A stretch of DNA of 61,499 bases from Succinatimonas hippei YIT 12066 (GTDB lineage Bacteria > Pseudomonadota > Gammaproteobacteria > Enterobacterales > Succinivibrionaceae), in NCBI RefSeq assembly GCF_000188195.1, contig NZ_GL830945.1, positions 1 through 61,499 of the forward strand, given 5' to 3'. This document shows, piece after piece, positions 10,626 through 22,032 of this stretch. The notes under the pieces are model-generated. The model was not told the origin of the DNA, made no database searches, and saw nothing but the letters and a program-made list of their open reading frames with translations. The position numbers were made by a program, and so were the translations under genes. Each line of letters starts with the position of its first letter. Position 1 is the stretch's first letter.

Positions 10626-12407
10626 TTAAATCCATCCTTTTTGTTTGAATTTCTCAATCATTGCTAAATCTTCCTCAGTTGGTAGTGTGGCGTTGCTCCT
10701 ATTCTTTTGATAATTGGATTCCCAATCCTGTAAAAGTTGCATTATTTCTGTAGCAACAATTTTATCTCGGTGTTCAATGTTTTCCAATGTCCAGTCATTG
10801 TTTGTACTTGCTATCAATATTTTTGTAACTTCTATTTTCGATTTTTGATATTCCTGTTGTTTTTTCTTGAAATAGCCGTTGCTGGCAATTATATTCAATT
10901 TCCGTTCAAATGGAGTTTTATTTCCAATATGCTCTATCATTTCGTAGACTTTTTCTGCGTCCACATCTGGGAAATAGGATTCTTGCCATTTTCGTGGAAG
11001 AATATGTTCTAATTGCCAATTATCAGGCAATAATTGTTCTTGATGATTGTATGCGTAACATTTCATGAGCATACGCACAATGTTTCTATGTGGAACGCGT
11101 ATTTGGCTTTCCAAAAGAGATTTGTCTATTTCGCGAAAGTCGAAATCAGGGTGTGGGTCATTAATAATCTTTGCATTTAGTTTCATGATGTCACTTTTGA
11201 CAGCATTAATGTTAGGAAACAGCAAAAATCGAGTCATCAACTCTTCTATCAATTTGTTGAGGAATAGAAGGAATTCTGTATTGAACATTTCTCTGTTTCG
11301 ATGCGATAGATAATAATTAATGACAGGATACTTCCAATACTCATTAGGATATGAAGTTAAGATGTCCAAGGCTTTTCTTATTTTTGCATCATCGTCCCAA
11401 TTTTCTTCTGGTATATCTTGATTTGTATTTACGACTTTCCATAAGTTTAGTACTGTTTTTAATCTTTCCATTAAATTTGGTTCAAAAAGCCTTTCTGATT
11501 TATTGGTCGAATAATATTTTCTTACACCTGGTGTTGTGGAACTAACATCATTCTCTTTGGCTCTAAGATAAAACATGTAGTAATAAAATAATTGTTGAAT
11601 ACTTTCGTGTGCTTCTGTAGCCTCTTTTTCCAATGCCTTCCATTGACTGATAAATTTTTCTTTTTCATCGTCTTTCAAGTTATTGTATATTTTAGCTTTG
11701 AATATGTCTGCATCGGAAAGAGGAAGTCCTCTGTTGTTTAATGTAGAGAAAATAGTCAAAGCTGTGTCTTGGCTGTCTGCACAAATGGGGAGTAATATAG
11801 CCTGATTTAGAAGGGCATAGATAAAGTCATACACCTTTAAAGGTGATTTTGCGCAATGATCGTCATATAGCTTTTGGAATAGCAGGTAATTCTTAGAGTA
11901 GTTATCGTTGGCGTCTGGATTGGCCATACCATCTTTTAGAATGTTTCGTAATATTTCATTGCCCTCATTGTCTACTACTCTTGAGGTTAGGAGAATATTG
12001 TTATAATCAACTTTTCCTGTACGGTTGTCTGTACGCCAAATAGCAGGTTCTATTTGACGGATGAAATTTTGAGCTGCGTCAGTTTGTACATCATCTCCTT
12101 TGTTAAGTTTTGTATAAATGGCGCGTAAAAGCAGAAACAACGATGTGATGCGCTGTTGTCCATCTATGATTTCTTGTTCACTATTTTCATTTTCAAATGA
12201 AACAATACTTCCTAAGAAGTATGAGCCATTTCGGTCTAATCCGCCGATGGTGGTGGCAAATTCCCAAATATCTTCAAATAAAGTTTCAACTTGTTCAGAA
12301 GTCCATGCATACGGTCTTTGATATTCAGGAATAATGAAAGGTTTAGTTCTTCCGGTTTTCAAGAGTTCTGCTACACTTTGTTTATTGACGCTTATTGTTG
12401 TTGCCAT
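10626..12407 (-). CDS. DUF262-DUF1524 protein, single-chain GmrSD-like type IV restriction nuclease
   Basis: The 593-residue protein starts with a ParB-fold DUF262 domain: IPEYQRPYAW at 26-35, FLGSIV near 64-69 and the diagnostic IDGQQR at 81-86. A helical middle follows. The C-terminal DUF1524 HNH-type nuclease domain has LEHILPR at 466-472 followed by IGNKT and LNIIASNGYFKKKQQEY. This arrangement matches fused GmrS-GmrD proteins, in which DUF262 binds and hydrolyses NTP and the HNH domain cuts modified (for example glucosylated) phage DNA; SspE of phosphorothioation systems shares it. No partner methylase or ssp/dnd gene is nearby. AT-rich codon use and flanking gene-poor DNA suggest horizontal acquisition. 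The ribosome site is weak. The modification it recognises is unknown. Confidence 0.9.
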   Translation of the reverse strand: MATTISVNKQSVAELLKTGRTKPFIIPEYQRPYAWTSEQVETLFEDIWEFATTIGGLDRNGSYFLGSIVSFENENSEQEIIDGQQRITSLFLLLRAIYTKLNKGDDVQTDAAQNFIRQIEPAIWRTDNRTGKVDYNNILLTSRVVDNEGNEILRNILKDGMANPDANDNYSKNYLLFQKLYDDHCAKSPLKVYDFIYALLNQAILLPICADSQDTALTIFSTLNNRGLPLSDADIFKAKIYNNLKDDEKEKFISQWKALEKEATEAHESIQQLFYYYMFYLRAKENDVSSTTPGVRKYYSTNKSERLFEPNLMERLKTVLNLWKVVNTNQDIPEENWDDDAKIRKALDILTSYPNEYWKYPVINYYLSHRNREMFNTEFLLFLNKLIEELMTRFLLFPNINAVKSDIMKLNAKIINDPHPDFDFREIDKSLLESQIRVPHRNIVRMLMKCYAYNHQEQLLPDNWQLEHILPRKWQESYFPDVDAEKVYEMIEHIGNKTPFERKLNIIASNGYFKKKQQEYQKSKIEVTKILIASTNNDWTLENIEHRDKIVATEIMQLLQDWESNYQKNRSNATLPTEEDLAMIEKFKQKGWI

Positions 12408-13156: not shown

Positions 13157-13381
13157 ATGAAAACACTAGATACGCTAAAACCCGGAGAGAATGCCGTTAT
13201 TACCGGCATTAACGGACAGAATACGTCTTTGCGCCGCCGCTTGCTCGATATGGGTTTAACCCTAAATACAAAGGTTTCTTTGGTGCGCGAAGCTCCGTTT
13301 GGTGATCCGATAGAGCTTGAGGTTCGCGGATACTCACTTACCATCAGAAAAAGCGATGCTCAATTAATTGAGGTTAAATGA
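13157..13381 (+). CDS. feoA: Ferrous iron transport protein A
   Basis: This 74-residue protein is a small SH3-like FeoA, the cytosolic partner of the FeoB permease. It shows the family pattern: LDTLKPGENAVITGI at the start, LRRRLLDMGLTLNTKVSLVREAPFGDP in the middle and an ending that resembles GYSLTIRKSDAQLIEV. Length is standard. The stop codon is one base from the feoB start, so the two are translationally coupled. No feoC gene follows feoB. Confidence 0.95.
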   Translation: MKTLDTLKPGENAVITGINGQNTSLRRRLLDMGLTLNTKVSLVREAPFGDPIELEVRGYSLTIRKSDAQLIEVK

Positions 13382-13382
13382 T

Positions 13383-15524
13383 ATGGCTTGTCAGAAAATA
13401 GCGCTTATCGGTAATCAGAATTCAGGAAAAACAACTTTATTTAATGCCTTAACCGGAGCCAATCAGTACGTAGGAAACTGGCCAGGCGTTACTGTAGATA
13501 AAGTTGTCGGAACTTTAAAAAGTACCGATACCAAGGTAGTTGATCTGCCGGGACTTTATTCATTGTCTCCGTATTCCCCTGAAGAAATCGTTAGCCGTGA
13601 ATATTTGTTGTCAGGTGATTACGATCTTATCGTCAATGTAGTTGATGCTGCTCACCTTGAGCGCAGTTTGTCTTTAACGGCTGAACTGCTTTCATTTAAT
13701 AAAAACATTATCGTTGCTTTAAATATGATGGATGTCGCCAAGAACAATCATATTGAAATCAATGTTAATGTCTTGGAGCAAAAACTCGGAATTAAAGTTA
13801 TCCCGATGTCTGCATCAACCGGTGACGGCGTACAGGATTTGGTGAATGCTTTAAACAATGTTCCGCAAAGACAGAAGGCAACCATTTATCCGCAGGAAAT
13901 AAAAGAGGCTGTCGTAAAAATCGGTTCCTATCTAAAAGATAAGAACGATTTTGAGAAAGAATTTATTTCTTTATGCCTGCTGCAAAATGATAAGGTCTAT
14001 GTTCATGAATATATGACCGATGAGCTTTTGCAGGTTGAGCTTGTTAAAATCCGTGCCGTTTTGGAAAAACAATACGGTCAGGATATGGAAAGCAAGCTTG
14101 CGGGGCTTCGTTACGCATTCGTTGATGAGGCAGTAAAAGCATCCGTTGTAAAAGCTGCGGCAAATCGCTCCAAGAATTTCTCTCGCGCCGTAGACAATAT
14201 CGTAACTAACCGTTATCTGGCATTACCGATTTTTGCCGTTATCGTCTATGTTGTTTACTACCTTGCCGTAAGCACAATCGGTACCTGGGGTACTGACTAT
14301 GCCAATGACGTTATTTTCGGTGAGTGGGCAACAAATGGGGCTGCTTACGTCCTTGACAGCATCAGCGCTCCTGAGTGGTTGTCCGGCCTTATTATTGACG
14401 GTGTTATAGGCGGTGTCGGTGCGGTATTAGGCTTTGTGCCGCAGATGATTGTGCTGTTCATTTTGCTCTCCTTCCTTGAGCAGTGCGGTTATATGACCCG
14501 TGTCGCTTTCGTTCTTGATCGCATCTTCCGTCATTTCGGTCTGTCAGGTCGCTGCTTTATTCCAATGGTTATTGCTTCAGGCTGTGCTGTACCTGCCATG
14601 ATGGCATCAAAATCAATTGATAACATCAATGAAAGACGCATTACTTTAATTGCCACTTCTTTCATTCCGTGCTCTGCTAAACTGCCTATTTTGGCAATGA
14701 TTGCCGCAGCGTTTTTCCCTGATTCAACCATCGTGGCTCCGGGTGTTTACTTCCTTGCCATTATTTCGGTTATAGTTACCGGCGTTATCTTAAAGAAGGA
14801 AAGCGCTTTTAAAGAAGAAGTTTCTCCTTTTGTCATGGAGCTGCCTGACTACCATATGCCGACACTTGGCAATATCGCAAGAAGCGTTTATTTACGCTGC
14901 AGAGCCTTTATCGTTAAAGCCGGTACCATCATTTTCTCAACGGTAGTCTTGGTTTGGTTCTTATCAAGCTTTAACTTTACCGACGAAGGCTTTGGTATGG
15001 TTGAAGTCGGTGATTCAATGCTTGCCGCCATCGGCTCTGCCATTGCCTTTATCTTCGTGCCGCTTGGTTTCTCTTCCTGGCAGTGTGCGGTCGCAATTTT
15101 TACCGGTTTGCTTGCCAAGGAGAACGTTGTCGGTACTTTGGCTGTACTTCTTGGTGTCGGTGCTGATGTTGCCGAAGATGATGCTACCTTGGGTGTAGCC
15201 TTGCACGGTGAGTTTTCAACCAGCGCCGCAGCTTTATCTTTCCTTGCATTCAACTTGTTCTCCACTCCGTGTATTGCGGCTTTGGGTGCAATGAAGCGTC
15301 AGCTGGCAAGCTCTAAGATGTTTTCTTTTGCCATTGTCTATTTGACGGTTTGGGCATATGTCTACGCCTTTATCATTTATCATTTAGGCGGTCTTATCGT
15401 CGGCCAGGTGGCTTTTGGTGCCGGAACCGTGGTTGCGTTGGTTCTTTTGGCTGCAATTCTTTACCTGTTGTTCCGTCCTGAAAAAGAAAAGCCGATGATG
15501 GGTATCAAAGTAAAAGCCGTCTGA
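13383..15524 (+). CDS. feoB: Ferrous iron permease FeoB
   Basis: This 713-residue inner-membrane protein imports Fe(II), typically under anoxic conditions. The N-terminal G domain shows G1 (GNQNSGKTTLF), the switch region NWPGVTVDKVVG, G3 (DLPG), G4 (NMMD) and a G5-like SAST. Two Gate motifs follow in the membrane domain, including GRCFIPMVIASGCAVPAMMASK and FIPCSAKLPILAM with the conserved Cys residues. The frame is open from 13368, but the ATG at 13383 is chosen: GAGG lies about 9 nt upstream inside feoA and the protein then starts with the G domain. A strong terminator follows. Confidence 0.97.
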   Translation: MACQKIALIGNQNSGKTTLFNALTGANQYVGNWPGVTVDKVVGTLKSTDTKVVDLPGLYSLSPYSPEEIVSREYLLSGDYDLIVNVVDAAHLERSLSLTAELLSFNKNIIVALNMMDVAKNNHIEINVNVLEQKLGIKVIPMSASTGDGVQDLVNALNNVPQRQKATIYPQEIKEAVVKIGSYLKDKNDFEKEFISLCLLQNDKVYVHEYMTDELLQVELVKIRAVLEKQYGQDMESKLAGLRYAFVDEAVKASVVKAAANRSKNFSRAVDNIVTNRYLALPIFAVIVYVVYYLAVSTIGTWGTDYANDVIFGEWATNGAAYVLDSISAPEWLSGLIIDGVIGGVGAVLGFVPQMIVLFILLSFLEQCGYMTRVAFVLDRIFRHFGLSGRCFIPMVIASGCAVPAMMASKSIDNINERRITLIATSFIPCSAKLPILAMIAAAFFPDSTIVAPGVYFLAIISVIVTGVILKKESAFKEEVSPFVMELPDYHMPTLGNIARSVYLRCRAFIVKAGTIIFSTVVLVWFLSSFNFTDEGFGMVEVGDSMLAAIGSAIAFIFVPLGFSSWQCAVAIFTGLLAKENVVGTLAVLLGVGADVAEDDATLGVALHGEFSTSAAALSFLAFNLFSTPCIAALGAMKRQLASSKMFSFAIVYLTVWAYVYAFIIYHLGGLIVGQVAFGAGTVVALVLLAAILYLLFRPEKEKPMMGIKVKAV

Positions 15525-15550
15525 TAATCAAAGTTATTGTGTTTTAGTTT

Positions 15551-15575
15551 AGAGCCCGCATCGCGGGCTTTTTAC
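15551..15575 (+). terminator. Intrinsic terminator after feoB
   Basis: AGCCCGC (15553-15559), loop ATC, GCGGGCT (15563-15569), then TTTT. Confidence 0.9.
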
Positions 15576-15663
15576 GTTTTATAACTTTTTAAAAGAAAGT
15601 TTAATAATTATTTTAAATTAAACATTTTGTGAACCGGCTCTAAGAATATTTTTTGCTGTTTTT

Positions 15664-15690
15664 TATAATTACAACTTGTATATACAAGTT
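15664..15690 (+). promoter_or_regulatory. Promoter -10 box with overlapping-range GntR/HutC-type operator
   Basis: A consensus TATAAT (15664-15669) is followed 3 nt later by a perfect 18-bp palindrome, AACTTGTATATACAAGTT (15673-15690). Its GT-ATAT-AC core fits operators of the HutC subfamily of GntR regulators, the class encoded by the next gene, whose ATG is at 15711. The palindrome covers the expected transcription start, so binding would repress the operon and the regulator itself. No good -35 box is visible. Confidence 0.75.
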
Positions 15691-15710
15691 ATGATTTAAC
15701 GGTATAAAAA

Positions 15711-16406
15711 ATGGAATCGGAAAATATATATACCGCAATAGCTGCAAAGCTTAGACAGCAAATCATGCAGGGAGAATTCAAAGACGGCGCAGTTTTTCCC
15801 AGCGAGTCGGAACTTACCAAAAGGTTTCAAGTTACTCGCACTACGGTGCGTCATGCTCTTGAACTTTTAGTTAATGAAGGATTGCTTTCAAAAAGCCAAG
15901 GGCGGCGCAATCGCGTGCAAATTCGCAAAATAACCAAAACGACTTGGAATTTCGCTTCGTTTTCCGAAGGAATGAGATCTGCCCATGAAATTCCGGTATC
16001 AAAAGTTTGTAAAGCGCAAATCATCGCAGCTGACGATGGAAGTTACTTTAACCTAGTACGTCTTCGCGGTATTAAACGCATTGCCGGTATTCAGTTCATG
16101 ACTTATGAAGATACAAAAGTACCGCTTTCTCTCTTTCCGCAAATTGATCGCTTTGATTTTTCTGTTGTCTCTTTGTATGAAACTATGCGTAAAGAATACG
16201 GAATTTATCCTTTTAAGGGTGAGTCGCAAATTTTTGCTGTTTTAGCCGATGAGTTTTTAGCCAAGAGTTTTGCCGTTACGGAAGGTTACCCTTTAGTTAA
16301 AGCCGTTCAATCTATTTTTGACAGAGAAGGAAGACTTGTAGAAAAGGTTTCAATAGTTTACGCACCTGAGTTAATCATTAAGCTTACGCAGGATGCCGGA
16401 CATTAA
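15711..16406 (+). CDS. GntR-family (HutC/UTRA) transcriptional regulator
   Basis: The 231-residue regulator has an N-terminal winged helix (residues about 5-75: IYTAIAAKLRQQIMQGEFKDG, then FPSESELTKRFQVTRTTVRHAL, the GntR signature). A UTRA ligand-binding domain runs from about 90 to the end. The gene heads an operon with an ADP-ribosylglycohydrolase-like protein, a PfkB kinase and an NCS1 permease. This layout parallels E. coli yegW with yegU and yegV. A palindromic operator immediately upstream implies autorepression relieved by a pathway metabolite. Confidence 0.92.
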   Translation: MESENIYTAIAAKLRQQIMQGEFKDGAVFPSESELTKRFQVTRTTVRHALELLVNEGLLSKSQGRRNRVQIRKITKTTWNFASFSEGMRSAHEIPVSKVCKAQIIAADDGSYFNLVRLRGIKRIAGIQFMTYEDTKVPLSLFPQIDRFDFSVVSLYETMRKEYGIYPFKGESQIFAVLADEFLAKSFAVTEGYPLVKAVQSIFDREGRLVEKVSIVYAPELIIKLTQDAGH

Positions 16407-16419
16407 TTAAGGAGATAGT

Positions 16420-17424
16420 ATGTCGCTTAAAGATAAAATTGCCGGAACTTTGGCAGGTATGGTTTACGGAGACGCCTTCGGTGTCCCCGGTGAATTGTGG
16501 CCGCGTGAAAAAGTAAGATCAAGGTTCGGGACAATTGACAAGTTTTTAGACGGTCCTGAAGATAACATCGTTGCCTGCTATTTTAAAGCAGGACACTATA
16601 CCGATGATTCCTCACAAGCACTGGTGATATTAAATGATTTACTAAAGTACGGACACGTACCTGAAGCAGCGATTTTGGCAAAAGATTTGATTGCTTGGGT
16701 TGAATCAATGAACGGATTTGAAATCAATCTTTTAGGCCCAAGCTCCAAAGCATCTTTGCTTGCACATGTAAAGGGTGAAGATTATACCAAGTATACCAAG
16801 ACGGCTTTGACTAACGGAGCTGCAATGCGCATTGCTCCGGTCGGAACTTTCTTTAATTTTGATGAAACTAAAAGTCTGTGCAGGACCGTAGCTAAAGTAA
16901 GCTCCGTAACTCACGGGACCGATGTGGCAATTGCCGGTGCAAGTATGGTAGCTCAAGCTGTTGCCAGCGGGCTTTGCGGCAGAAGCTATGATGAAATGCT
17001 TGAGGATATCTGTAAGGCTTTTGATTTTGCCGTAACTTTAGGTGAACCGACCTGGGCGGCATCAATCAAAGACAGACTTTTAAATGTGCTTGATAAAGCA
17101 AAAGGATGTACCGATCCTGATAAGTTCAGCTTACTTGTATATAACTTAGTCGGAACCGGTACGATGACATCCGAATCGGTAACTGCTGCTTTAGCTATTG
17201 CCTATTATTGTCAGGATGTGGAAAAGGCGGCGTTTTTATGTGCCAATATGGGCGGAGATACCGATACTATAGGTTCTATGGCCTGTGCAATTTGCGGAGC
17301 ATTTAACGGTTTGTCCTCGATAAAGAATGAAACGATTTCTTATCTTGAAAAAACCAATGATATTAATTTTGCCGATCTTGCCGATAAGATTATTAAGGCA
17401 CGAGCTTCTTTTATAAAGGAGTAA
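16420..17424 (+). CDS. ADP-ribosylglycohydrolase-family protein (YegU-like)
   Basis: This 334-residue all-helical protein carries the di-metal site motifs of the family. GDAFGVPGE lies at about 17-25, TDDSSQALVIL at 61-71 and GGDTDTIGSMACAI near 278. The Asp residues in TDD and DTD bind the two Mg ions. Known members remove ADP-ribose from proteins or cleave other N-ribosyl bonds. It is followed after 2 nt by a PfkB-type sugar or nucleoside kinase and then a nucleobase-type permease. I therefore infer cleavage of an N-glycosidic bond in an imported nucleoside-like compound rather than protein de-ADP-ribosylation. AAGGAG precedes the ATG at good spacing. Confidence 0.88.
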   Translation: MSLKDKIAGTLAGMVYGDAFGVPGELWPREKVRSRFGTIDKFLDGPEDNIVACYFKAGHYTDDSSQALVILNDLLKYGHVPEAAILAKDLIAWVESMNGFEINLLGPSSKASLLAHVKGEDYTKYTKTALTNGAAMRIAPVGTFFNFDETKSLCRTVAKVSSVTHGTDVAIAGASMVAQAVASGLCGRSYDEMLEDICKAFDFAVTLGEPTWAASIKDRLLNVLDKAKGCTDPDKFSLLVYNLVGTGTMTSESVTAALAIAYYCQDVEKAAFLCANMGGDTDTIGSMACAICGAFNGLSSIKNETISYLEKTNDINFADLADKIIKARASFIKE

Positions 17425-17426
17425 TT

Positions 17427-18377
17427 ATGCAATTAGACGGGATTTTAAGCGGTCTCAATCCTAAGCACAAAGTGTTTATTTTAGGCTCGGCAGTGGTCGA
17501 TTTAGTGCTTAGCGTTAACAGACTTCCGAAATCAGGTGAAGATATAAGTGCCGCCTTTCAAGGCGGCAAGGTAGGCGGCTGTGCTTTTAATGTAGCAGAT
17601 GTTCTTACCAAGCTTGATTTACCTTGTTCTACGTATTTTCCGGTAGGCGAGGGAATGTTTGCCCAGATTGTAAAGCAGGAATTTATCAAGCGCTCAATTG
17701 CGATATCCCAGGTATGTAACTGCGGTGATAACGGATGGAATCTTTCACTGGTTGAACCTGACGGTGAAAGGACCTTTATTACCATGTCGGGACTTGAGTG
17801 CAGAATGCAGAAACAGTGGTTTGATAAGTATTCTTTCTCTGATTTTGATTATTTCTATTTATCAGGTTATCAGGCAGAGGGAGAAAACGGCGATATTATG
17901 TTGGAGATCTTAAAGCGTAAGCGTAAAGACTCTTTTTTAATATTCGACCCCGGTCCTCGATCTGAATTTATCTCTGCAGAAAAAGTGCACTGTTTTGAGG
18001 AATTAAACTGCATATATACTATTAACGCTAAAGAAGCGTGTATTTTAAGCGGAAGGCTTTATCCTGATGATGCGGCTCTTGAGCTGTGTAAGCGTACCGG
18101 CAATCCTGCCGTTATAACGGATGGTGCAAAAGGTGCGTATCTTGCTTGCGATAATAAAGTAAGTTTGATTCCCGGTGTTTCTATTAAGGTGGCAGACACC
18201 ATCGGATCGGGCGATGCCCATACCGGAGGTTTTATTGCAGGACTAATGTGCGATTTATCTTTAGAAGATGCGGTTAAACTTGCAAATTATACGGCAGCTT
18301 ATGTAACTGCGCATCAGGGAGCAGCTTGTGCTCCGACAGCGGATCAGATGTTGTCTTTTTTTACTGAAACTTTGTAA
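17427..18377 (+). CDS. PfkB-family carbohydrate or nucleoside kinase (YegV-like)
   Basis: The 316-residue ribokinase-fold protein shows GSAVVDLVLSVNRLPKSGEDI with the N-terminal PfkB pattern and GGKVGGCAFNVADVLTKL for substrate binding. Near residue 260 is DTIGSGDAHTGGFIAGL, the PfkB C-terminal signature, which holds the anion hole and the catalytic Asp. It should transfer phosphate from ATP to a sugar or ribosyl hydroxyl. Together with the glycohydrolase-like neighbour it suggests capture of released ribose, or nucleoside phosphorylation before cleavage as in PsuK/PsuG. GGAG precedes the ATG. The substrate is not determined. Confidence 0.9.
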   Translation: MQLDGILSGLNPKHKVFILGSAVVDLVLSVNRLPKSGEDISAAFQGGKVGGCAFNVADVLTKLDLPCSTYFPVGEGMFAQIVKQEFIKRSIAISQVCNCGDNGWNLSLVEPDGERTFITMSGLECRMQKQWFDKYSFSDFDYFYLSGYQAEGENGDIMLEILKRKRKDSFLIFDPGPRSEFISAEKVHCFEELNCIYTINAKEACILSGRLYPDDAALELCKRTGNPAVITDGAKGAYLACDNKVSLIPGVSIKVADTIGSGDAHTGGFIAGLMCDLSLEDAVKLANYTAAYVTAHQGAACAPTADQMLSFFTETL

Positions 18378-18400
18378 TGTAAAATCTTGAGGAACATAAA

Positions 18401-19867
18401 ATGAGCGAAAACAACGCTTTAGCCTCTAAAATTGAAGTTAACGGAATCAATCCGATTCCTGACAGCGAACGCTACGGCAAACCGTCAGGATTATTTCCGA
18501 TTTGGTTTTCATGGAATATTTCCATTTTCGGTATAACCTGCGGTATTTACGTTTTAAGTTTAGGTTTGTCGGTATGGCAGGCAATGGTTGCCGGTGTTTT
18601 AGGTTATTTTTTGTCCTGCTCATTGGTCGGAATCCTTGCTGTAGGCAGCGTACGCACCGGATTGCCCACATTAGCCCAGTCTCGTTTTGCCTTCGGTTAT
18701 CACGGTAATAAAATTCCGACTTTTTTCGGTTATGTCGCCAATATGGGCTGGAAAGTGACCATGCTTTCGATGGCTTCTACCACTCTTGCCGATTTGTTAT
18801 CTAATTTAATGCCGTTTTTTGAGCAGGAGTCGGGATACCCTACGACTTTCTGTCTGCTGATTTCTTTTGCTGTTGTTATTGTATTGACGATGGCAGGAGC
18901 CGTATACGGATATAACATGATCGTTAAAGTAGAGAAGTATATTGCCGTTATTACCGGCATAATGACGCTTATCTATTTGTTCTTCTTTATTCCTAATATT
19001 GATTTTGCAATTTTAGGTGATAAGCCTTCAGGAAGCATCGGAGTATTTTTCGGCGGTGTGGTTTTGGCTATGACCATGGTAGGCTTAGGCTTTTTAAATT
19101 ACGGCGGTGATTATTCACGCTATCTGCCGCGCAATACCGGAGCTTTCGGAGTCATTTTCTGGACTACTTTAGGTATTGCTCTTCCTGTGTCAGTACTCCT
19201 TATTTTAGGAGTTATGCTCGGTGCCGGAAATGAAGCCTTAGTTGAAAAAGCCGCACATGAACCGCTTGCCGCTTTGACCGGAATTTTACCTTTCTGGTTT
19301 TATGTACCTTTTTCAATTGTTATCATTATTTCTCTGATTTCAGCAGGGATGACCGGAGTATACAGTTCAGGTCTTGCTCTTTTGGCGATGGGAGTGCCGT
19401 TAAGCCGTGCCGTTACTACATTGTTAAATGCGGTAATTATTGCTTTGGGATGTTTTTATCTGACCTTTGTTTCAGATTCTTTCCTGTCTACTTTCTCATC
19501 TTTCTTGGCAACCATTTCAGTTATTATGGGTTCGTGGGGAGCTATTGAGATTGTTGATATGCTGCGGCAAAAAGCTTTAGGCTGGAATGTCGCTATGGTT
19601 AATCCATACGGACAGGGCGGACGAGACGGACGCTGGACGGCGCTTTTATCCTTAGGTATTGCAACTTTTATCGGTTTGGGCACTATTACTTCTTCAGATC
19701 CGTATATCGCTTACATTACGTCTTTCCTTTTAAGCGATGATTTGAAAAACAGTGTTTTTGCAACTGCCAATATCGGTCTTATCGTAGCTATGATTAGCGG
19801 TGCCATTATATATGCGCTGTTAACTTATGTTCTGCAGATTAAAGTTGAACCATATACTCAAAAATAA
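18401..19867 (+). CDS. NCS1-family cytosine/purine/nucleoside permease
   Basis: The 488-residue protein has about 12 hydrophobic helices. NCS1 hallmarks are the N-terminal LFPIWFSWNISIFGITCG, GLPTLAQSRFAFGYHGNKIPTFFGYVANMGWK in helices 2-3, and LNYGGDYSRYLPRNTG between helices 6 and 7. NCS1 members are cation symporters for cytosine, purines, uracil, allantoin, hydantoins or thiamine. As the last gene of the operon it presumably imports the compound handled by the two enzymes. E. coli uses an MFS protein (YegT) in the analogous locus, so this is a transporter swap if the loci are equivalent. GAGG precedes the ATG, and a hairpin follows. Confidence 0.92.
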   Translation: MSENNALASKIEVNGINPIPDSERYGKPSGLFPIWFSWNISIFGITCGIYVLSLGLSVWQAMVAGVLGYFLSCSLVGILAVGSVRTGLPTLAQSRFAFGYHGNKIPTFFGYVANMGWKVTMLSMASTTLADLLSNLMPFFEQESGYPTTFCLLISFAVVIVLTMAGAVYGYNMIVKVEKYIAVITGIMTLIYLFFFIPNIDFAILGDKPSGSIGVFFGGVVLAMTMVGLGFLNYGGDYSRYLPRNTGAFGVIFWTTLGIALPVSVLLILGVMLGAGNEALVEKAAHEPLAALTGILPFWFYVPFSIVIIISLISAGMTGVYSSGLALLAMGVPLSRAVTTLLNAVIIALGCFYLTFVSDSFLSTFSSFLATISVIMGSWGAIEIVDMLRQKALGWNVAMVNPYGQGGRDGRWTALLSLGIATFIGLGTITSSDPYIAYITSFLLSDDLKNSVFATANIGLIVAMISGAIIYALLTYVLQIKVEPYTQK

Positions 19868-19885
19868 GTAAATTTATTAAATAAC

Positions 19886-19918
19886 AAGGGCAGGGTAATT
19901 CCTGCTCTTATGCTTTTT
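19886..19918 (+). terminator. Terminator after the permease gene
   Basis: AAGGGCAGG (19886-19894) pairs with CCTGCTCTT (19901-19909), with one G-T wobble. A short T run follows at 19914-19918. Confidence 0.7.
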
Positions 19919-19940
19919 AGGCAGTATGCTTTATCTAAAA

Positions 19941-19969
19941 TGAAAAGGCCCCGCATTAAGCAGGGCCGA
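19941..19969 (-). terminator. Intrinsic terminator downstream of purB
   Basis: Read on the minus strand, GGCCCTGC, loop TTAAT, GCGGGGCC and then TTTT lie about 20 nt past the purB stop. The stem spans 19947-19967. Confidence 0.9.
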
Positions 19970-19987
19970 ATCAGAAAAGAAGATAGC

Positions 19988-22032
<2,045 letters not shown>

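Follow-up and report, generated by a model that had tools for sequence, protein, structure and literature searches.

A 61,499-nucleotide stretch of contig NZ_GL830945.1 from Succinatimonas hippei YIT 12066 (the window, hereafter) carries four plus-strand genes at 15711-19867 that form one likely transcription unit, encoding in this order a GntR/UTRA regulator, a protein of the ADP-ribosylglycohydrolase fold (ARH, PF03747), a PfkB kinase and an NCS1-family permease. We propose that this is a catabolic operon by which a riboside-like glycoside is imported, phosphorylated and only then hydrolysed by the ARH enzyme, a reading to which we give a probability of roughly 45%. An original prediction, made from the letters of the sequence, had placed the three structural genes at 16420-19867 and suggested import and breakdown of an N-ribosylated compound; the coordinates are exact and the gene content is borne out by Pfam matches. 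Uptake and breakdown of a small glycoside is still the likeliest role, judging from the nucleoside-permease score of YegT and the riboside kinase of Salmonella described below, and a nucleoside is a candidate substrate. The order of hydrolysis and phosphorylation had been left open, and the evidence now leans to phosphorylation first.

In the pathway that we envisage, the regulator would repress the operon from a palindrome in the promoter until an effector binds, the permease would bring in the glycoside by cation symport, as its family suggests, the kinase would phosphorylate the sugar of the intact glycoside, and the ARH-fold enzyme would hydrolyse the phospho-glycoside at its metal site to an aglycone and a sugar phosphate, namely ribose 5-phosphate should the sugar be ribose. 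This proposed succession of kinase and glycosidase would resemble in its logic that of PsuK and PsuG, a PfkB-family nucleoside kinase and a glycosidase which then acts on the 5'-phosphate (available part of PMC9247573), although the hydrolase of the window has the ARH fold (PF03747) and is not of the PsuG type.

The operon type is known, from yegTUVW of E. coli and STM4065-4068 of Salmonella, and the operon of the window is a variant of it in which an NCS1 permease is combined with the regulator and a candidate operator. The parallel with yegTUVW drawn in the original prediction holds, in that ARH, PfkB kinase, GntR-family regulator and importer lie together in both, with 37% identity between the ARH proteins and 33% between the kinases. 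However, the E. coli importer is a nucleoside:H+ symporter (YegT, PF03825) of the major facilitator superfamily (MFS), encoded by the first gene, where the window has an NCS1 permease, and yegW is at the other end of the gene group, on the opposite strand. Compared with yegTUVW in the strict sense, the window has the ARH and PfkB genes together and a GntR/UTRA gene beside them, and lacks a YegT-type symporter. The Salmonella locus likewise unites importer, PfkB kinase (27% identical), ARH and GntR regulator, but its importer is a glycoside-pentoside-hexuronide (GPH) symporter, its order is importer-kinase-ARH-regulator and its ARH is 25% identical to that of the window.

A scan of genome contigs, which by design finds close relatives, returned 11 of them, eight from Sutterella or Parasutterella and three from Succinivibrionaceae. 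The order ARH-PfkB-NCS1 is kept in all 11, with identities to the window of 63-74% for ARH, 44-52% for PfkB and 69-79% for NCS1; the permease is therefore better conserved than either enzyme, a hint that its substrate is fixed among these relatives. More widely, a PfkB gene lies on the same strand as ARH, beside it or one gene off, at 53 of 57 ARH places, each from its own genome or record. Because the order is kept throughout the relatives and PfkB goes with ARH at so many places, we conclude that the operon is not a chance assembly. The four places without PfkB are two loci with a phosphotransferase system (PTS; L048 and L050) and two distant orphans (L087 and L088), whose ARH proteins are 28% and 26% identical and have no importer beside them.

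The 57 places are the window, L002-L012, L013-L018, L021, L022, L024, L025-L044, L047-L055, L071 and L072 (extended as L082 and L083) and L084-L088. Where a short locus ended early it was replaced (L058 and L059 for L035 and L044, L082 for L071), repeat retrievals were counted once, and L019, L020 and L023 were excluded because identical match numbers indicate that they belong to the genomes of L012, L004 and L006; L014/L052 and L013/L053/L054 are near-copies among those counted. At E 1e-40, ARH is found in 21 of 398 genomes of a phylum sample, own genome included, and in all 20 of the others PfkB adjoins it or is one gene away. In the family of the window the operon is an accessory trait, with matches at the same threshold in 7 of the 56 genomes examined, again counting its own.

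A comparison of transporters across loci with the same two enzymes, which had been put forward as a check, gave a clear picture: the importer changes while the ARH-PfkB pair stays constant. We read the importer type at part of the 57 places. Enterobacteria and vibrios have the YegT-type nucleoside:H+ symporter, and YegT itself reaches 651.6 bits against a 'nucleoside permease' model with a cut-off of 446.1; the Salmonella riboside-kinase locus has its GPH symporter, which is over the cut-off of its own model; rhizobia, Paracoccus and others have a PotD/PotA-like ATP-binding cassette (ABC) importer; and loci of Listeria and Enterococcus have a PTS of the beta-glucoside class. Among nine genomes of the phylum sample, part of 12 larger regions taken from the 20 non-own genomes with an ARH match, we found four MFS and three ABC importers, both kinds recognised by eye, and two NCS1 importers. 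Since the importer differs around a constant pair, it is the enzymes and not the importer that define the pathway. By the same token the permease class, which had been taken as a hint of a base- or small-nucleoside-like substrate, does not suffice to name the substrate, since the pair is also found with GPH and ABC importers, and ARH without the kinase with a PTS.

The permease of the window (18401-19867, plus strand, 488 amino acids) matches PF02133 with E 1.1e-34 and 120.4 bits (cut-off 23.5), lies below the TIGR00800 cut-off (87.1 of 353.1) and has no match among solved structures at E 0.001. NCS1 permeases are carriers of bases and small heterocycles. Plasmid operons of Lactobacillus also combine ARH, NCS1 and PfkB, but in the order ARH-NCS1-PfkB and with an NCS1 of another group, 27% identical to that of the window; the NCS1 proteins of the Plesiomonas and Paraburkholderia operons are 29% identical to it, and those of all three sources together 25-30%. 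The Lactobacillus ARH, at 46-48% identity, is the closest that we found outside Pseudomonadota, and groups with the window clade with support of 99/96 in a tree of 30 hand-picked rows that carried a warning of long branches, and of 89/79 in a second tree without five long or odd rows. At least two groups of NCS1 permeases thus accompany the enzyme pair. As the Lactobacillus ARH falls in the window clade while its NCS1 is so distant, one NCS1 carrier seems, from these sequences, to have taken the place of another while the enzyme stayed the same. An NCS1 of Nonomuraea is 42% identical to the window's; the surrounding 15 kb hold no ARH, and the open reading frames (ORFs) around it gave no clue to the substrate.

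On L. plantarum plasmids (L014/L052) the operon is preceded by genes for an NrtR-like regulator, a nicotinate phosphoribosyltransferase and an isochorismatase-family protein (L014:3887-7000), and salvage of nicotinamide adenine dinucleotide (NAD) was considered and set aside, the arrangement being taken as a juxtaposition. What counts against this idea is an apparent 3' end of a UTRA regulator, seen by eye, in the gap before ARH. None of these three genes occurs among the annotated operon neighbours on L013, L053 and L054, whose gene tables have gaps and of which L053 has only some 1.1 kb of sequence ahead of ARH.

The ARH gene (16420-17424, plus strand, 334 amino acids) matches PF03747 with E 2e-54 and is the sole match to this family in the genome at E 0.001. 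Residues T61, D62, D63, H165, D280 and D282 are invariant in all 19 hand-picked proteins of our alignment and T283 is nearly so; we take the TDD (T61-D62-D63) and DxDT (D280, D282) positions to be the metal ligands. The structure model (predicted local distance difference test, pLDDT, 85.3) aligns with MJ1187 (1t5j; Z-score 35.0, root mean square deviation, rmsd, 2.6, 300 residues aligned), with ARH3 (2qty; Z 35.0, rmsd 2.8, 306 aligned) and with the ADP-ribosyltransferase-ARH toxin-immunity pair of Listeria (8za7; Z 29.8, rmsd 3.0, 301 aligned). Given the conserved residues and the match of the model to MJ1187 and ARH3, the protein probably has hydrolase activity on a glycosidic bond.

The ARH fold, common to DraG, ARH3 and Tri1, is mostly regarded as a remover of ADP-ribose from proteins. 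The enzyme of the window could accordingly strip ADP-ribose from protein or confer immunity against an ADP-ribosyltransferase, with the kinase and permease as unrelated neighbours, and both the fold, which extends to the Listeria pair, and the retention of the metal ligands would suit such a role. Nevertheless, the protein falls far short of the equivalog cut-offs for DraG (64.6 of 337.05 bits) and Tri1 (60.2 of 490 bits) and, while it shares fold and metal ligands with DraG, ARH3 and MJ1187, it is unlike them regularly accompanied by a kinase and an importer. No ADP-ribosyltransferase family of Pfam was found in 26 window proteins, including the two flanking genes and 20 further ORFs, which are part of the coding content of the window (46 ORFs of at least 150 amino acids in all). 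This lack in the scanned genes, together with the nearly constant kinase beside ARH, makes protein de-ADP-ribosylation very improbable. The loss of an aromatic residue at the position of Tyr149 of ARH3, which stacks on adenine, was also weighed as evidence against ADP-ribose, and dropped because DraG, a true ADP-ribosyl hydrolase, is likewise without it (GDAGNGAAMR). Among the open-licence literature matches listed, as far as titles and the beginnings of abstracts go, no enzyme activity was assigned to this kind of ARH.

The kinase (17427-18377, plus strand, 316 amino acids) matches PF00294 with E 2.1e-36, has the ribokinase fold and keeps D25, G50-G51, N55 and G262-D263 in the alignment. The lysine of the ribokinase motif GGKG-N contacts ribose. 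It is present, as GGKGAN, in all five ribokinases compared and absent from all 16 hand-picked kinases of the family, where C, S or M replaces it in 14 and the motif is one residue shorter in two; the window has GGCAFN. In E. coli PsuK, ribose is held by Asn14, Asp16, Gly41 and Asn45, Val42 lies between Gly41 and Asn45, and Asp256 is at the 5'-OH (available part of PMC9247573). By motif and spacing, compared by eye outside the alignment, D25, G51, N55 and D263 of the window may correspond to Asp16, Gly41, Asn45 and Asp256; the sugar kinases of the family have these residues as well.

Three lines of evidence favour phosphorylation before hydrolysis. Firstly, an annotated aminoimidazole riboside kinase gene lies beside ARH in the Salmonella relative, and STM4066 of the operon STM4065-4067 phosphorylates aminoimidazole riboside, as reported in the available part of PMC3161100. 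Secondly, no PfkB gene occurs within about 15 kb at the PTS loci of Listeria (L050) and Enterococcus (L048), the two examined out of six plasmid records from these genera, as would be expected if the PTS had already phosphorylated the imported glycoside. Thirdly, the ribokinase lysine is missing and there are other ribokinase-like genes in the genome: two further kinases are 70% and 58% identical to a ribokinase-like protein encoded in a relative (L012:11395-12330), the 70% match sitting on another contig. The genome also has one IU nucleoside hydrolase match and one PNP-family match, so that the cell seems to have other means of handling free ribose and ordinary nucleosides, and the operon probably serves compounds other than the latter.

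The opposite order, in which ARH would act on the riboside before any phosphorylation and release the base and a free sugar, the latter to be phosphorylated by the PfkB enzyme, has to be weighed against these lines, and several observations speak for it or otherwise weaken the kinase-first pathway. By profile and by fold the kinase is nearest to ribokinases: its model (pLDDT 92.7) aligns with the ribokinase 9zpu with Z 34.7 (rmsd 2.1, 294 aligned), compared with Z 31.6 (rmsd 2.3, 282 aligned) for the aminoimidazole riboside kinase 1tz3. The ribokinase-like gene of L012 lies about 190 bases behind the NCS1 gene, which would fit release of free ribose. Moreover, that protein is itself below the ribokinase equivalog cut-off (222.6 of 299.65), which renders soft both the argument from separate ribokinases and the argument that the window kinase is below it (93.3 of 299.65 bits). 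The PTS case consists of two loci in one long-branched ARH clade, with a PTS of the beta-glucoside class and an ARH only 30% identical to that of the window; the Salmonella ARH, remote as its identity indicates, stands on the longest branch of the tree; and GPH, ABC and PTS importers point to no single substrate class. Even so, with the lysine missing in every family kinase compared, the low ribokinase score, PTS loci that do without a kinase, other ribokinase-like genes at hand and a riboside kinase in the Salmonella locus, hydrolysis as the first step appears to us somewhat unlikely, and we retain phosphorylation followed by ARH hydrolysis.

The kinase could also come first in the breakdown of a glycoside other than a riboside, for instance an N- or O-glucoside, in which case ARH would be a phospho-glycosidase of new specificity. 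This would be in keeping with the beta-glucoside class of the examined PTS, with the GPH symporter of Salmonella and with a SIS-domain gene within the operon of Yersinia frederiksenii. YegT, however, is over the nucleoside-permease cut-off, NCS1 permeases are carriers of the kind described above, and the one kinase from such an operon for which an activity is reported has a riboside as its substrate (available part of PMC3161100); we hence judge a non-ribose substrate to be plainly unlikely.

For E. coli, GgaR (YegW) and yegTUV have been proposed to tune glycogen, and the operon of the window could on this model act on nucleotide sugars or ADP-glucose. In the available part of PMC10819704, less YegW-DNA complex is reported in gel shifts when ADP-glucose is present, and more glycogen when yegW is lost. 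The genome of the window has matches to glgC and glgA over the cut-off, which keeps the idea in play. Against this, the regulator of the window is only 26% identical to YegW, NCS1 and PTS importers would not be expected to carry ADP-glucose, and the yegTUV enzymes are without clear function in the portion of the GgaR paper available (PMC10819704). A role in glycogen metabolism is thus very unlikely here.

As a tentative extension whose validity is possible but doubtful, ARH proteins paired with PfkB may constitute an unrecognised class of small-molecule phospho-riboside hydrolases, which would follow the PsuK/PsuG logic on a different fold and in which the two enzymes are kept and the importer is exchanged across Pseudomonadota and Bacillota. 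Within such a class, the PTS loci that lack a kinase would follow this pathway too, with the importer doing the phosphorylation. Since alpha-linked ADP-ribose compounds are among the ligands in solved ARH structures (7arw and 7aqm, by their titles), the enzymes may in nature act on ribosides that have the alpha configuration or are unusual in some other way, and that escape the ordinary nucleoside hydrolases and phosphorylases.

The regulator gene (15711-16406, plus strand, 231 amino acids; PF00392, 8.2e-17, and PF07702, 1.7e-15) is preceded by a perfect 18-bp palindrome, AACTTGTATATACAAGTT, at 15673-15690, one of four perfect palindromes of at least 16 bp in the window. It lies between two promoter-like hexamers on the plus strand (15668-15695), ATTACA (15668-15673) and TATGAT (15690-15695), with a 16-base spacer and 9 of 12 matches; this pair is a weak match to the consensus, and the region has six such sites compared with 9.8 expected from shuffles. 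In all five independent Succinivibrionaceae relatives in which gntR adjoins the operon (L004, L006, L012, L068 and L069), a copy of the 14-base palindrome core with one or two mismatches is present within 260 bases upstream of that gene, at distances of 28 to 234 bases, and the observed match was equalled by 0, 0, 0, 5 and 1 of 1000 dinucleotide shuffles, respectively. In the eight Sutterellaceae operons the best upstream match to the core has 5-7 mismatches, and there is no gntR match beside the operon. From this sequence conservation, the palindrome is probably the operator of the GntR regulator, and an operator for a repressor is the simplest reading.

The four genes are separated by gaps of 13, 2 and 23 bases, and Shine-Dalgarno-like sequences, judged by eye, precede the starts of the ARH, PfkB and NCS1 genes. 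The unit is flanked upstream by feoB (13368-15524, plus strand) and downstream by purB (19988-21355, minus strand), which converges on it. Terminator-like stem-loops on the plus strand lie 3' of feoB, on the upstream side of the operon (15551-15571; 9 pairs, 6 of them G-C), and 3' of the operon (19886-19909; 10 pairs, 5 G-C); terminator-like sites number 14 in 15400-20100, compared with a shuffle mean of 5.0 (standard deviation 2.4). Rfam gave no match at gathering score in 15300-20100.

A purB-like gene, identified by eye, is also found near a remotely related ARH-NCS1-PfkB operon of another genome, G598 (L082:4294-5754), and the closeness of operon and purB in both may be due to chance, to insertion at a common site or to a connection with purines. 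Elsewhere in the window, at 10626-12407, a protein with both GmrSD domains is possibly a phage-defence factor. In Listeria, a parB-type gene and a catalase gene flank a PRD regulator, the beta-glucoside PTS and ARH (L050:4141-7984); we take this locus to be bvrABC, in which case BvrC would be a candidate phospho-glycoside hydrolase. The Yersinia frederiksenii operon (L055:5207-11783) has the order GntR-ARH-SIS-PfkB-phytase-like-UshA, and thus adds a SIS-domain protein and phosphatase-like genes. ORFs near two ARH operons (L062:1917-3167 and L067:13980-15230) resemble aconitase X. Enterobacterial operons of the yegTUVW type (L017, L018, L057, L065 and L066) lie near thiM and thiD, in part annotated and in part ThiD-like by eye. 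These neighbours are of interest because aminoimidazole riboside can meet a thiamine requirement (available part of PMC3161100).

What the present analysis adds to the known operon type is the picture of importers exchanged around an enzyme pair that stays constant, together with a reaction order that is open to test. The recurrence of the ARH-PfkB pair could let a function be assigned to all such operons at once. The pathway also bears on Salmonella, for which attenuation in pigs of a mutant in STM4067, the ARH gene, is reported in the available part of PMC3161100. For the NCS1 version, found at eight loci in Sutterellaceae and, within the family of S. hippei, in 7 of 56 genomes with its own included, identification of the substrate would show what these bacteria take up.

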